From positions 1 to 27,374 of IMG/VR virus record IMGVR_UViG_3300049793_000049: DNA of 27,374 bases. The stretch is one strand, 5' to 3'. Made by a program: the position numbers and the translations under genes. Under the pieces are notes generated by a model. That model was not told where the DNA came from. It saw nothing but the letters and a program-made list of their open reading frames with translations, and ran no database searches. The stretch is from a virus. Of this stretch, positions 13,065 through 24,964 are shown one piece after another. Every line of letters starts with the position of its first letter. Position 1 is the stretch's first letter.

Positions 13065-13179
13065 TTGCCCACCCCTTCATTCTTTGAAAACTTACGAAAA
13101 CGTAATAAGGAATGGAGGTATTGCGGTCACGGAACATTCCCCAACAACCAGTTTCAAGCTTACGAATATGTGGTTTCAT
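13054..13179 (-). CDS. Hypothetical 41-residue protein
   Basis: This small frame starts at ATG 13179, overlapping the polymerase stop as ATGA, with AAAGGA upstream inside the polymerase end. It runs to TAG at 13054-13056, overlapping the start of the J-like gene by 11 bases. The product begins MKPHIRKLETGCWGMFRDR and continues with an aromatic strand-like part (IPYYVFVSFQ). It fills the only gap between the polymerase and the J-like gene exactly, which is strong support for a real gene. It resembles the N-terminus of the protein at 12403-12597. Function unknown. Confidence 0.65.
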   Translation of the reverse strand: MKPHIRKLETGCWGMFRDRNTSIPYYVFVSFQRMKGWAIGF

Positions 13180-15590
13180 TTGGGCCATCCTTTCCTACTT
13201 CCTTCTCCTTTGCCGCAGTCCCCCCAACTTACGATACTCGTTTTGAGGCCCATAGGTACAATCAACGGATCATCATAGGGAACGACTACTTGCGTTGCTG
13301 CGTACAGTTGCGGAAGAATTTCTGCTTCCCTAGCTGTAGGGTAGATGCCTACAACACTATCATAGCATTGCAGCAAGACAGTCACACCGGGAATTTTCTC
13401 CATATTCATGTGCACCAAACTGGCAACGATTGCAATTGTAGATTGTGGAATCCAAGCCAGCGCTTCCGGCAACAACCCCTCCACCCTATCAAAAAATGTC
13501 ATCTTGTAACCAAAGGCATTCCGTACCATGCGGCCATCAGCAAGTTGCGCCGCCGTTCTGGTGTGCCAAGTCTTGATGCCTGGGTGTAGCACAAACCAAC
13601 GCCGTTGAGCCATGTCAGCTTCGTGAACGGTGCTACCAGTCTTAATCGCACATGTGCGTGCGCAACCTGCATAGTCAGTAAGATGAACGAAAGTCTTACC
13701 CTTTTCCCGCTGTACAGGTGTGGGTTCAGCGATGCCGAATAGCTCTTTAGCGTTTTCATAGTGTATGTCTACTCCTGCCTGTAATTTGGCTTTTAGGTCG
13801 GCGTCGTCAGCTTCCCACACCACCACTTGCAAGTCAGCGCGCTCTAGGTCGCAGTCAAAAATCGTATATCCAACCGGAGGAACAATAGCGCGTCGGAAGT
13901 TTGGAACCTTGTTTCCACTATGCGTTGTGCCACTTCCTGATACGTTAAGTAGGTTCGTTCCGCGCCTAAAATTGTTTTTGCTGCTCGTAAGGCGAAAAGT
14001 CTCTGTTCCAGTCGCCATGAAAGAGGACCGTAATTTTCCGTCCGGGTCAAGTTTCGCTCTAAGGAAATTACTGCGCATACTTGCAAGCGATCTGTGTTCC
14101 AGTATGGCGGTGAGAACTGCCGCGTACTCCGGGTGCCACAGCGCCACTTGGCGCAATTCTTCATCTCCTGTACCACCTGGAGTCTTACCTTTTCGCCCCG
14201 GTTTACGGCAGCCCCATTCATTGTAAAGTAGCTTAGAGACCTGTACCGGCGACGTAGGATTAATTGGGTAGCCAGCCGCATCGCAAATGATGATCTTGCG
14301 TTCTTGGAGTGCTTCCTCGACTTCATCATCAAGTTTTTGCGTAACGGTTTCATCCCGAATTACTCCTTGCTGCATCATGTCGTACACCGAATGATTGTAG
14401 GTCATGCGCTCAGAAAATTGTGCCATTAATCCACCTCGTTCTATAGCTACACGTTGCTTTTGCGCGGCCTCCCAAGTTGCACATACATCACGACAGTTGT
14501 ATCTGAAAAGTCTATCGAAGTCTTTGAGGTTAGACCAATCTCTAGCGTCATCCTTCCAATAACAATGCCAATCGCAGTACATGCTAGAGAGGTATCCAAG
14601 TCCTCGGGGAGTTCCCGGAAAAAGTACAGTTTGGGCAATAAGCGTGTCAAACGCAACGCGTGGAATAAATTGGAAATTGTCATCAAAGTAGCTCGCATCA
14701 TAGTTAAAATTTTGCCCAATAATCTTTACTTCTGGCGACGAAAGTTTTTGTTGGAGTGCCGCGATAACGATTTGCGCGTCAAGGGCCGACCAATACGCGC
14801 CGTAGTTCTCAGATATAAACGGTATGCACATAGCATGCGTAGCTGATACACCAAGGCCAACGCAAACAATACGATTCCTTGAAGTCTCCACATCCACGGC
14901 AATATCGCCTGCAAGAGACTCGATAAACGATAAAGCATCAGCCAGAGTAGGTTCATAGTTGAAGTCCCATTGTGGGGTTACAAAGCCGCTTCGGAGGCGT
15001 CGGGCGACTCGTTGTTTAAGGTCATGCGCTGTAAAAGGACGAGTGGACCAGTTGCACAAAATTGAGGTTGGATGAAGGGTTGGTACGAAGGGGCAGTTTC
15101 GCTCGTCTGATAACGCCACCCCCATTTCGCTTCCGCGCCAATCCAGTATGCCCCACTCGCCTGCGAGCGCCCATAGAGCAGTGTTCCCGAGGCCAATAAT
15201 GATACGGGGGTTGCGATCAAGTATCTCGCCCCGCAATTCTGCAAGACCTTCACCAATTTCTTCACTGTAATAACGCCCATCTTTGTACTCCCATTCGTTA
15301 GCTATTCCGAGTTTCTTTTTGTCTGTCATCCAATGTTCAAGAGGATTAGATACTTGTTTGCTTGTGGGAGGACGATACTTACAGACATTTGTGATGTAGC
15401 ATGCGCGAGGATCAATACCAGCTTCACGAAGCATCGTTCCAAGTAGCCTACCGGCTTGCCCAGTAAGGGGTCTGCCTTCAACTTCATCGTCAATAGTAGG
15501 GCATTCCCCAACGATCACGATGTCAGCTTGGGCAGGACCGTAGCCGGAAACACGACGAAGACCATTGTCATTCAGCATTTTGCAGTCCAT
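13176..15590 (-). CDS. Uracil-DNA glycosylase-like / 3'-5' exonuclease / family A DNA polymerase fusion
   Basis: This 804-residue replicative polymerase has three parts. Residues about 15-200 resemble family 4/5 uracil-DNA glycosylases: GECPTIDDEVEGRPLTGQAG (28-47) and TLHPTSIL (171-178). Residues about 225-385 are a DEDDy exonuclease: D233-x-E235, D298 in GQNFNYD, and Y364-x3-D368. Residues about 400-804 are the polymerase: motif A with Asp581 (FDCDLERADLQ), motif B with Arg628, Lys632 and Tyr640, and motif C with Asp744 (QCYDSVVG). Two positions are unusual: His636 replaces the Phe762/Tyr526 position of the O helix, and motif C reads YDS instead of HDE. ATG 15590 is used; ATG 15578 with a nearer GGA is possible. 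Confidence 0.92.
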   Translation of the reverse strand: MDCKMLNDNGLRRVSGYGPAQADIVIVGECPTIDDEVEGRPLTGQAGRLLGTMLREAGIDPRACYITNVCKYRPPTSKQVSNPLEHWMTDKKKLGIANEWEYKDGRYYSEEIGEGLAELRGEILDRNPRIIIGLGNTALWALAGEWGILDWRGSEMGVALSDERNCPFVPTLHPTSILCNWSTRPFTAHDLKQRVARRLRSGFVTPQWDFNYEPTLADALSFIESLAGDIAVDVETSRNRIVCVGLGVSATHAMCIPFISENYGAYWSALDAQIVIAALQQKLSSPEVKIIGQNFNYDASYFDDNFQFIPRVAFDTLIAQTVLFPGTPRGLGYLSSMYCDWHCYWKDDARDWSNLKDFDRLFRYNCRDVCATWEAAQKQRVAIERGGLMAQFSERMTYNHSVYDMMQQGVIRDETVTQKLDDEVEEALQERKIIICDAAGYPINPTSPVQVSKLLYNEWGCRKPGRKGKTPGGTGDEELRQVALWHPEYAAVLTAILEHRSLASMRSNFLRAKLDPDGKLRSSFMATGTETFRLTSSKNNFRRGTNLLNVSGSGTTHSGNKVPNFRRAIVPPVGYTIFDCDLERADLQVVVWEADDADLKAKLQAGVDIHYENAKELFGIAEPTPVQREKGKTFVHLTDYAGCARTCAIKTGSTVHEADMAQRRWFVLHPGIKTWHTRTAAQLADGRMVRNAFGYKMTFFDRVEGLLPEALAWIPQSTIAIVASLVHMNMEKIPGVTVLLQCYDSVVGIYPTAREAEILPQLYAATQVVVPYDDPLIVPMGLKTSIVSWGDCGKGEGSRKGWPK

Positions 15591-21414: not shown

Positions 21415-22083
21415 TCAACCTTTCATCAGAGCCTCAAGCTCTTGTAATTTAACTTGTACTAATGGAGTTTCTTCCACTTGATCTGTAAGTTTAAGCATAT
21501 CGTCTAAGAGTTGTAACCGCGATTCAACAAGTTCTTTGTAAACGGCGGTGGCATCGGCAGCGGCATCGGCGGCATCGGCAGCGGCGTAGGCGGCATAAAC
21601 AGCAGCGGCATCGGTGGCATCGGCAGCGGCATCGGCGGTGGCATAGGCGGCGTAGGCGGCGACAGCGGTGGCGTAGGCAGCAGCGGCGGCTTTGCCCTTC
21701 AATGCAGTTTTCTTATCCACAATTTTGTCGCAGCTTTCTAACATTTTAGCTTGTGCTTCCAGCTTTTGTACCCGTAATGCAATTGGAGCAAATTTTCGTA
21801 CAGCGTAATCTGCCGCCATAAATGCACGTTGTTTTTCAACTTCCAATGAAGACTTGCTTCCAGCAATCCGTAATACAAATGGAAGCAGCAATTGCCGTTC
21901 TTCCCCCTTCATCCAGTCATTTGTCCGAATAGCAAAACTTGTTACAACAGGACAAGCACATTTTGGATGATCTGTATGTTTCTCTCCTTCAATATAAGCA
22001 ACACATTCCATAATGCACATACCATCTTGCGGATTGCTATGGGCACCTTCTGAAAGCTTAATAGCCAAGTCATTAAAGTTCAT
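21415..22083 (-). CDS. Conserved phage protein with Ala-rich repeat
   Basis: This 222-residue protein starts at ATG 22083 with AGGAG upstream. The N-terminal domain carries MCIMECVAYIEGEKHTDHP followed by KCACPVVTSFAIRTNDWM, a Cys/His-rich block seen in many phage proteins of unknown function; Cys23, Cys27, Cys43 and Cys45 with His could bind metal. Residues about 132-180 are a low-complexity Ala/Tyr/Asp/Thr repeat (AAYAAYATADAAADATDAA). The C-terminus is a coiled helix (ELVESRLQLLDDMLKLTDQ). The repeat probably varies in length between relatives. Confidence 0.7.
   Translation of the reverse strand: MNFNDLAIKLSEGAHSNPQDGMCIMECVAYIEGEKHTDHPKCACPVVTSFAIRTNDWMKGEERQLLLPFVLRIAGSKSSLEVEKQRAFMAADYAVRKFAPIALRVQKLEAQAKMLESCDKIVDKKTALKGKAAAAAYATAVAAYAAYATADAAADATDAAAVYAAYAAADAADAAADATAVYKELVESRLQLLDDMLKLTDQVEETPLVQVKLQELEALMKG
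21544..21690 (-). repeat. GC-rich imperfect hexamer repeat coding Ala-rich sequence
   Basis: About 147 bases are built from GGCxxC-type units on the + strand (GGCATC, GGCAGC, GGCGTA variants). They encode runs of Ala with Asp, Tyr, Thr or Val on the - strand, and base composition differs sharply from the flanks. It lies inside the gene at 21415-22083 and keeps the frame. Confidence 0.8.
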
Positions 22084-23014: not shown

Positions 23015-23271
23015 ATTTTACTCACATCAAACTCAAGTTCCGCCTTGTTGTACTCCGTAACCTTGTCTTCCTCAACTTTTGCGAGATACCAATTGAGCCA
23101 GCGATGCACTGGCATCTCAATATTTGGTACTTCAAGTCGTCCCCACAATCCTGCAACCGTACGGTACGCTATCACTTCCTCTTGATAATAGACAATTTGC
23201 TCACCATTCGCCATCAACACAATGGTGCGGTTGCCCGGCATACTCTCCATCGGCGTCGTTATGATTTTCAT
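23011..23271 (-). CDS. Hypothetical protein
   Basis: This 86-residue protein starts at ATG 23271, overlapping the upstream stop (ATGA), with AAGGAT before it. It is beta-rich at the N-terminus (RTIVLMANGEQIVYYQEEVIAY) and helical later (HRWLNWYLAKVEEDKV). No motif is recognised. It is translationally coupled to both the upstream gene and the nuclease gene, whose start overlaps its stop, so it may be a nuclease partner; this is inferred from position only. Confidence 0.65.
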   Translation of the reverse strand: MKIITTPMESMPGNRTIVLMANGEQIVYYQEEVIAYRTVAGLWGRLEVPNIEMPVHRWLNWYLAKVEEDKVTEYNKAELEFDVSKI

Positions 23272-23600
23272 TTTTCATCCTTTTTGTTCTGTTCAAAACT
23301 GCGTCCAAGCAGAGTTGCCACATCGCTATCTTCCTTAAAGCGAAAATGAACGTCAGTACCAAAAATAACTACTTCCTTACGTGCCAAATTAGGAAGTTTG
23401 TATTCAGAATCTTGTGGCGACAACGTAGCTTCCCAAGCTTCCTGCGCTTTCCGTGCTTTATACCACTCAAGTCGTACTTTCTGCGCCTCTTTTAGACTGT
23501 CGCAATGCACTACATAGTTTTCTTCAGGATGGTCATTGAAGCGTTCAAACAAAATGGCCCAATTGTCACTGTATTTCTTGATGTCTTTTGATGCACTCAT
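23268..23600 (-). CDS. Hypothetical charged protein, first gene after the regulatory region
   Basis: This 110-residue protein starts at ATG 23600 with AAAGGAA upstream. It is highly charged: a helix (DIKKYSDNWAILFERFNDH), a strand (NYVVHCDSLKEAQKV), a long helix (RLEWYKARKAQEAWEA), then VVIFGTDVHFRFKEDSDV and a Lys/Asp-rich end. No family is recognised. As the first gene downstream of the TATAAT promoter at 23642-23647, it leads the nuclease/ATPase transcription unit. Confidence 0.65.
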   Translation of the reverse strand: MSASKDIKKYSDNWAILFERFNDHPEENYVVHCDSLKEAQKVRLEWYKARKAQEAWEATLSPQDSEYKLPNLARKEVVIFGTDVHFRFKEDSDVATLLGRSFEQNKKDEK

Positions 23601-23641: not shown

Positions 23642-23670
23642 ATTATAGTCCTCTACCATAATTTAGCTAA
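23642..23670 (-). promoter_or_regulatory. Sigma-70-like promoter for the nuclease/recombination unit
   Basis: On the - strand a perfect TATAAT (-10, 23647-23642) lies 17 bases after TTAGCT (-35-like, three of six consensus positions). Transcription would start near 23635, leaving a leader of about 35 bases before ATG 23600. Confidence 0.5.
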
Positions 23671-23760
23671 TTGAGATTGGCTATCGTCAGTGGTAAAGCG
23701 ATAGCTATTGTTCGTGTACATGTGGGCCGCAGAGAACCACAGTGTCCATGTGACCAGCAC
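23653..23760 (-). CDS. Possible 35-residue protein in the regulatory region
   Basis: GTG 23760 lies seven bases after a very strong AAAGGAGG (23775-23768). The frame encodes MLVTWTLWFSAAHMYTNN followed by a polar end and stops at TAG 23653-23655. Part of it lies in the left arm of the long inverted repeat; the corresponding frame of the other arm is broken by a TAG. A second frame using GTG about 60 bases upstream would give about 51 residues with GGGCWSHGHCG. Whether any is translated is unclear. Confidence 0.3.
   Translation of the reverse strand: MLVTWTLWFSAAHMYTNNSYRFTTDDSQSQLAKLW
23680..23705. promoter_or_regulatory. Seven-bp inverted repeat in the regulatory region
   Basis: GCTATCG (23680-23686) and CGATAGC (23699-23705) form a perfect inverted repeat around 12 bases, ten bases upstream of the -35-like hexamer. 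It could be an operator or an RNA hairpin. No T-run follows. Confidence 0.4.
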
Positions 23761-23783
23761 CCCCCACCCTCCTTTCCGAAAAA
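23715..23783 (+). repeat. Left arm of a long imperfect inverted repeat
   Basis: About 69 bases match the reverse complement of 23930-23998 without gaps at roughly 75 percent. Fully conserved blocks are TGTACATGT (23715-23723), TGTCCATGTGAC (23743-23754) and a CCCCCACCC tract; the spacing between the first two blocks is identical in both arms (28 bases). Confidence 0.8.
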
Positions 23784-23836
23784 CCTTACAAAAGGATTCC
23801 AAAAAGAAACATCTTGCACTTTTCCTTTAAAGACGC

Positions 23837-23854
23837 TACTCTATATATAGAGTA
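23837..23854. promoter_or_regulatory. 18-bp perfect palindrome, probable operator
   Basis: TACTCTATATATAGAGTA reads identically on both strands. It lies about 11 bases from the midpoint of the long inverted repeat, in a gene-free region. Such sites are typical for dimeric regulators or an origin core. Confidence 0.6.
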
Positions 23855-23908
23855 AGATAGGGGAAGTATTGTCTAATCTCCTATATTTCTCTTTCGTGTG
23901 ACGCGCGT

Positions 23909-23925
23909 AGCAAATGCCATGCCAA
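23909..23925 (-). promoter_or_regulatory. Sigma-54-like promoter element
   Basis: On the - strand TTGGCATGGCATTTGCT matches the RpoN -24/-12 consensus (TGGCAyr-N4-TTGCw) with GG and GC ten bases apart. It points towards the leftward genes. Only one core consensus base (C to T) differs. Confidence 0.4.
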
Positions 23926-23929
23926 TAGT

Positions 23930-23998
23930 TTTTGTGGAAGTGGGGGTGGGGGCTCCCAGTCACATGGACATAGCGGCTTACTGTGGCTTACATGTACA
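23930..23998 (-). repeat. Right arm of a long imperfect inverted repeat
   Basis: Reverse-complement partner of 23715-23783. It starts directly after the stop codon of the gene at 23999-24292. GTCACATGGACA is at 23959-23970 and ACATGTACA at 23990-23998. Most differences in the middle block are A/G changes. Confidence 0.8.
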
Positions 23999-24292
23999 TC
24001 AATCTTCCCTCTCTCCCGCATGCTTTTTCACTGTTGCATCCACCTTACGAATGAGTGCTTCAATCAGCAAATACGTGTCATCCAGTGTTGCGCAGATTAC
24101 CTCCAAGCCACGCTCCGAGCTACCTTCTTTAGCTTTGATGTGAGCGCAGAACACGAAACCAGCTATATCTTCCGCATCCAGTTCTGCAATTTGTTTCAGC
24201 GCCCACTCAACGCTGCCTTTACTGACAAACGCCTTCTCCCCATCCTTGGCGAAGTGAGAGTTGTCCACCCTTTTGATGTTGTCAGTTGTCAT
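23999..24292 (-). CDS. Hypothetical protein, paralogue family A
   Basis: This 97-residue protein starts at ATG 24292 with AGGAG upstream, overlapping the previous gene by 11 bases. After a polar start (MTTDNIKRVDNSHF) it has a helix (SVEWALKQIAELDAED), a strand (IAGFVFCAHIKAK), a strand (RGLEVICATLDD) and a helix (TYLLIEALIRKVDATVKK). The same order and several residues recur in the proteins at 24282-24551 and 25025-25309, so these look like diverged tandem copies. No function is known. It is the last gene before the 398-base gene-free region. Confidence 0.65.
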   Translation of the reverse strand: MTTDNIKRVDNSHFAKDGEKAFVSKGSVEWALKQIAELDAEDIAGFVFCAHIKAKEGSSERGLEVICATLDDTYLLIEALIRKVDATVKKHAGERED

Positions 24293-24871: not shown

Positions 24872-24964
24872 TTACATGTACTTCCAGTTCTCAACAATCG
24901 GCCAGCACAACAGCGCCGTAATGGCGACGATTGCAACTGCATACGCCCAGTCCCTACCTCTCAT
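24872..24964 (-). CDS. 30-residue membrane microprotein
   Basis: ATG 24964 follows GGAGG at a five-base spacing, and the frame ends at TAA 24872-24874. The peptide starts MRGRDWAYAVAIVAI and continues TALLCWPIVENWKYM: a positively charged N-terminus and one membrane span, so N-in topology. It occupies the only gap between two confident genes. Function unknown; the type resembles other tiny membrane peptides in this operon. Confidence 0.55.
   Translation of the reverse strand: MRGRDWAYAVAIVAITALLCWPIVENWKYM

Follow-up and report, generated by a model that had tools for sequence, protein, structure and literature searches.

Gene layout and the inverted repeat

The DNA analysed here in its whole length (the window) is a 27,374-nt fragment of IMG/VR virus DNA; it comes from a podophage. 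Structural genes lie on the left and are read rightward; replication genes lie on the right and are read leftward, and include those for a UDG-PolA fusion polymerase, a DUF3987 primase/helicase-like protein, an SSB, a Sak4-like protein and a PD-(D/E)XK exonuclease. The polymerase gene (13176-15590) specifies a DNA polymerase I with an N-terminal uracil-DNA-glycosylase domain, an arrangement retained in relatives. The gene at 21415-22083 contains an alanine-rich repeat (YAAYATADAAAD-like), the length of which differs between the window and the contig G001.

A long inverted repeat (about 23715-23998, the element) lies between two genes that, as the initial annotation stated, are both read leftward. 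The upstream gene (23999-24292, minus strand, 97 aa) has no family match; the first gene downstream (23268-23600, minus strand, 110 aa) belongs to a family kept at the same place in relatives. For the product of the downstream gene, modelled with pLDDT 86.6, Foldseek and VIA returned no informative fold (the best VIA match, Z 5.3 to the Stn1 C-terminal domain, is below trust level); there was no convincing Pfam family and no convincing sequence match in PDB (best E 0.32), and the best BFVD match was an unnamed viral protein (E 1.7e-3). We consider this product only a candidate for the arm-binding protein.

The arms, read inward, occupy 23715-23786 (plus strand) and 23927-23998 (minus strand); they are 72 nt each, align without gaps with 53 matches (74%) and are separated by 140 nt. 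The second arm borders directly on the stop codon of gene 23999-24292. The inverted-repeat score was 34; when the whole window was dinucleotide-shuffled 200 times, the highest score obtained was 18. The arms of ∼69 bases at ∼75% identity described initially are thus present and prove to be 3 nt longer; the remark that changes between the conserved blocks were mostly A/G was about right, 12 of the 19 arm mismatches being transitions and 7 transversions. Two blocks, TGTACATGT (23715-23723) and TGTCCATGTGAC (23743-23754), do have exact partners in the other arm (23990-23998 and 23959-23970, minus strand), with starts 28 apart in both arms as had been claimed. The outer unit of arm 1 can be written as TGTACATGTG (23715-23724, plus strand) and shares the core TGTMCATGTG with the inner unit 28 bp inward; each arm has two such units, and helical phasing in the window alone is not decisive. 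An extra TTACATGTAC, resembling the outer unit, was seen at 24872-24881, ∼0.9 kb upstream of arm 2.

Inward of the repeat units each arm has a C-rich block, CCCCCCACCCTCC in arm 1 (23760-23772, plus strand) and CCCCCACCCCC in arm 2 (23942-23952, minus strand); similar blocks are present in relatives (ACCCCCCACCCCCAG in L094, TACCCCCCACCCTCC in L335). The centre (23787-23926) is AT-rich, with 37% GC versus 47% for the window, and we propose it, on composition only, as an unwinding region. It contains the 18-bp perfect palindrome TACTCTATATATAGAGTA (23837-23854), centred 11 bases from the repeat centre in agreement with the initial annotation, the core of which, CTATATATAG, is common to L094. 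It also contains a block TTGCTACGCGCGTCACACGAAAG (23891-23913, minus strand), of which ACGCGCGT is common to L177, with a related block in L012. Immediately beyond arm 1, towards the early genes, a promoter-like site TTAGCT-17-TATAAT (23642-23670, minus strand) points at gene 23268-23600; it is purely a consensus match (9 of 12).

The element in related phages

To collect more distant relatives we used the exonuclease, polymerase, primase and Sak4 genes as anchors, as well as a pattern for C- and G-runs, and scanned the sequences for inverted repeats. Most are metagenomic contigs, several of them incomplete, and the primase-anchored loci mostly stopped short of the element. Where records extend far enough, the PolA polymerase is encoded, in most cases together with the DUF3987 protein. 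In 22 genomes of one podophage group we found one strong element each (score 29-47), located in early non-coding DNA, every other inverted repeat in the same scanned stretch being near background. Two of these genomes are circular records, MW202489 (arms 38405-38472/38546-38613) and MW202554 (35772-35844/35946-36018). Isolated relatives, Microcystis phage Mel-JY34 and Vibrio phage VS-ABTNL-3, have the element in weak form only. Loss of the second arm in related phages, or conservation due to codons in a single arm, had been named beforehand as refuting; both arms were kept in the 22 genomes, and an explanation by codons was not found.

In a sample selected by gene kinship only (26 contigs, scanned over ∼20 kb upstream of the exonuclease), 12 contigs had a strong element, 4 a weak one and 10 none at this sensitivity. 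Unrelated phages and prophages, sampled as 77 loci with a Sak4 gene (937 kb), had no element with a score of at least 29. L177 was picked up solely by the C-run/G-run pattern and then shown to be kin (polymerase 63% identical); the pattern-only look-alikes L186, L196 and L208, C-rich or of low complexity, were left out of the counts. A search of phage records with the nucleotide sequence of the element region gave no match, and a search of IMG/VR with the exact arm pattern returned only the near-identical G001. This contig is 95-99% identical to the window; its base 1 corresponds to window position 23758, inside arm 1, and because it starts there it cannot show the second arm.

Other repeats were observed along the way. 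Other exonuclease relatives, most without the element (L113, L114, L116, L119, L127, L139 and L169), have GGATTACT..AGTAATCC palindromes, perhaps terminators or another repeat system; the virus record L208, the pattern-only match, has at its locus end (13818-14070) a 119-nt inverted repeat that is 99% perfect.

The spelling of the arms differs between genomes, and the two arms of one genome match each other. The repeat unit is TTTAGTTCTC in L094, CTAGATTRCTCC in L344, GGCGAATGAT in L342, TGTCTGGT in L177 and TGTMCATGTG in the window; L094 and L344 have three to four units per arm. Arm length across the family is 45-115 nt. Autocorrelation pooled over the arms of 24 elements has peaks at lags 10, 11 and 12 (z 5.5, 3.1 and 4.4) and troughs at 5 and 14-17: the arms are made of short repeats on one helix face, phased at 10-12 bp. 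Many members have, inward of the repeats, a C-rich block such as ACCCCCCACCC.

GC content of the core is mostly 0.3-0.5, that of the genomes 0.45-0.64. A run of 8-21 T is present on the early-gene strand in 16 of 24 cores, with A instead in one core; of the 30 A/T homopolymers of at least 8 nt in 793 kb of relatives, 19 fall within 2.9 kb of cores. The window and its nearest kin have no such run, the T8-T21 tract being missing from the window's own core, and have core blocks of CTATATATAG type and ACGCGCGT type instead. Because the window is without the T-tract and has only two repeat units per arm, its case rests on the relatives.

DNA sites, RNA structure and other explanations

An inverted repeat of this size could act as RNA, the early transcript, which runs leftward, forming a long hairpin there (an RNase III site or a regulatory RNA). 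Predicted RNA folds of either strand of the window element are indeed much more stable than those of shuffles (z −8.5 and −7.1), which made this reading attractive; as any inverted repeat folds as RNA, we discounted the strong fold. Selection on RNA should favour G.U over A.C mismatches on the transcribed strand; counted on the sense strand of 24 elements, arm mismatches numbered 89 G.U versus 90 A.C, so that neither strand gives a sign of selection for wobble pairs, and we rejected the hairpin on this count. Helically phased direct repeats are not expected of RNA either, and there was no Rfam match at the gathering threshold or at E 5; an RNA role is therefore very improbable. The lack of wobble bias together with helical phasing points to double-stranded DNA sites read by a protein, and argues for the arms being DNA sites of a putative co-evolving binding protein. 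More generally, a strong RNA fold predicted for a long inverted repeat does not make it an RNA, and the wobble count tells RNA and DNA elements apart.

Sites for a protein could also constitute a long-range operator or enhancer, with a phage regulator bridging both arms into a loop and switching the adjacent early promoter, with no role in replication. This is the main rival to an origin. Promoter matches in the 200 bp that follow the element downstream, towards the early genes, were better than in shuffles (mean best 8.9 versus 7.8 of 12; at least 10 of 12 in 7 of 23), the core and the upstream side being at background, and phased repeats would suit cooperative regulators too. However, operators rarely need arms of 45-115 nt with a homopolymer, unwinding-like core; the universal single copy and the AT-rich core would be left unexplained, and a neighbouring promoter directed away is also used by origins, as in lambda (PMC5043065). 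We therefore hold a purely regulatory role to be unlikely. A start site of packaging (pac/cos), the arms being binding sites of the small terminase, is less probable again. A small-terminase-like gene does lie within ∼3 kb, on the other side of the element, in 11 sister genomes, and in six records (G001, G012, G033, G037, G017 and Mel-JY34) the element is within ∼660 bp of the contig or record end. On the other hand, within the window's subgroup ∼4.6, 6.4 and 9.3 kb separate the element from the large terminase gene, which does not match the position in or beside the small terminase gene expected of a pac/cos site; the majority of contigs continue past the element, mirror symmetry would leave packaging without a direction, and contig ends inside G/C runs resemble assembly breaks. 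Least probable of all is a plasmid-like centromere segregating or positioning phage DNA: known plasmid centromeres of ParR/TubR type are phased iteron arrays, but the window's family matches include no motor/adaptor pair, and a lytic phage has no clear need of one.

Two further candidates were rejected. Ends of a MITE or transposon would not fit the absence of a target-site duplication (flanks TTCG versus TCAA) and the single copy per genome; for a protelomerase telomere site there is no shared perfect palindrome, that of the window being only partly present in L094 and other members having T-tracts. Packaging, transposon and telomere readings all fit worse than an origin. As to the record ends themselves, the element is found at base 1 of G001 (L006) and of L012, at 46.6 kb of 47.1 in G033, near the ends of G037 and G017 and at 44116-44304 of 44433 in PP438425; six such ends are more than random expectation, and could be assembly breaks at G/C and T runs or physical ends. 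The two contig breaks inside arms beside G/C runs look like an assembly effect.

A probable replication origin

We interpret the element, from its sequence and that of its relatives, as a probable phage replication origin of iteron type, with mirrored arrays around an unwinding core; we put the probability at about 0.6. The initial annotation had offered an origin, a partition or packaging element and a looped operator. The origin is the best supported of these, because of the phased repeats in both arms, the AT-rich core, the single copy, the early region and the conservation of both arms in relatives; the operator keeps some support from the promoter-like site seen across the family, and packaging is disfavoured by the terminase distance. 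The linked replication genes, one copy per genome and the early non-coding position fit an origin as well.

Several points count against it. No GC-skew switch was seen at the element, although skew gives little guidance for or against an origin, profiles being flat or mixed with no consistent difference (Wilcoxon p 0.13), and no DnaA box was found in the 24 elements scanned; to these are added the promoter-like neighbour site, the 10 of 26 sister contigs without the repeat and the window's want of a T-tract. In favour of an origin, the core of MW202554 has one perfect DnaA box, TTATCCACA. In the G004 contig, GC skew (2-6 kb) is about −0.42 directly upstream of the element and far milder in adjacent kilobases.

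If the element is an origin, a presumptive phage-coded initiator would bind the two mirrored arrays of short repeats and load symmetrically from both sides, so that the AT-rich core might be strained or melted; the phage DUF3987 primase/helicase-like protein, the UDG-PolA polymerase and SSB would then enter at the core. We infer in this way that replication starts at the element. No known initiator gene was identified, and we found no paper on replication origins of these phages, nor on such a site in them.

In layout the closest match is with the SV40/polyomavirus core origin and herpesvirus oriS/oriL, where inverted initiator sites are placed around an A/T tract. These viruses and their initiators are unrelated to the phages, and their sites are few, in contrast to the 45-115 nt arms of the phage element. 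In make-up, repeated helically phased sites beside an AT-rich region are what is found in lambda ori, SPP1 oriL/oriR and iteron plasmid origins (PMC5043065; PMC6316719). Lambda ori has iterons and a 40-bp A+T-rich region, and helical phasing is typical of initiator iterons (PMC5043065); as in the phage element, several initiator sites lie beside an A+T-rich region that opens, and a nearby promoter may point away (PMC5043065). In lambda, however, the iterons make up a single array within the O gene and the AT region flanks it on one side, whereas the phage element is non-coding and has its AT core between two mirrored arrays; a gene resembling O was not found. SPP1, likewise a lytic phage, combines direct repeats with an AT-rich unwinding element in oriL and oriR, of which oriR is intergenic (PMC6316719); it differs in having two origins with direct-repeat arrays, the phage element being one per genome with mirrored arms, a C-rich block and a T-tract. 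In the RepA_N-type origin of the phage satellite PLE, inverted sub-repeats of iterons converge on a poly-A tract (PMC7145576), but these inverted repeats lie inside each iteron, and no RepA_N homologue was seen in the window phage.

One could go further and suppose an undescribed origin design common to the family: iteron arrays, mirrored and in helical phase, together with C-rich blocks around a stranded T-tract, in an animal-virus-like layout, with repeats turning over rapidly together with the initiator while the layout stays fixed. We give this proposal even odds. Most environmental phages have no known origin; a mark recognised in the bare sequence, by layout and not by letters, would provide testable origin calls for the podophage group (22 genomes) as well as a handle on the initiator. 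Fast turnover of arms with the pairs still matched would preserve a natural trace of shifts in the specificity of a DNA-binding protein.

A family of ∼180-aa proteins with the motif HGLxQKxxDAAA was also observed near the element. It has no clear PHROG match and was not detected in the window's subgroup; it is encoded no farther than 6 kb from the element in 17 genomes (L322, L310, L313, L101, L334 and 12 others), often as two diverged copies and mostly where the core has the T-tract.
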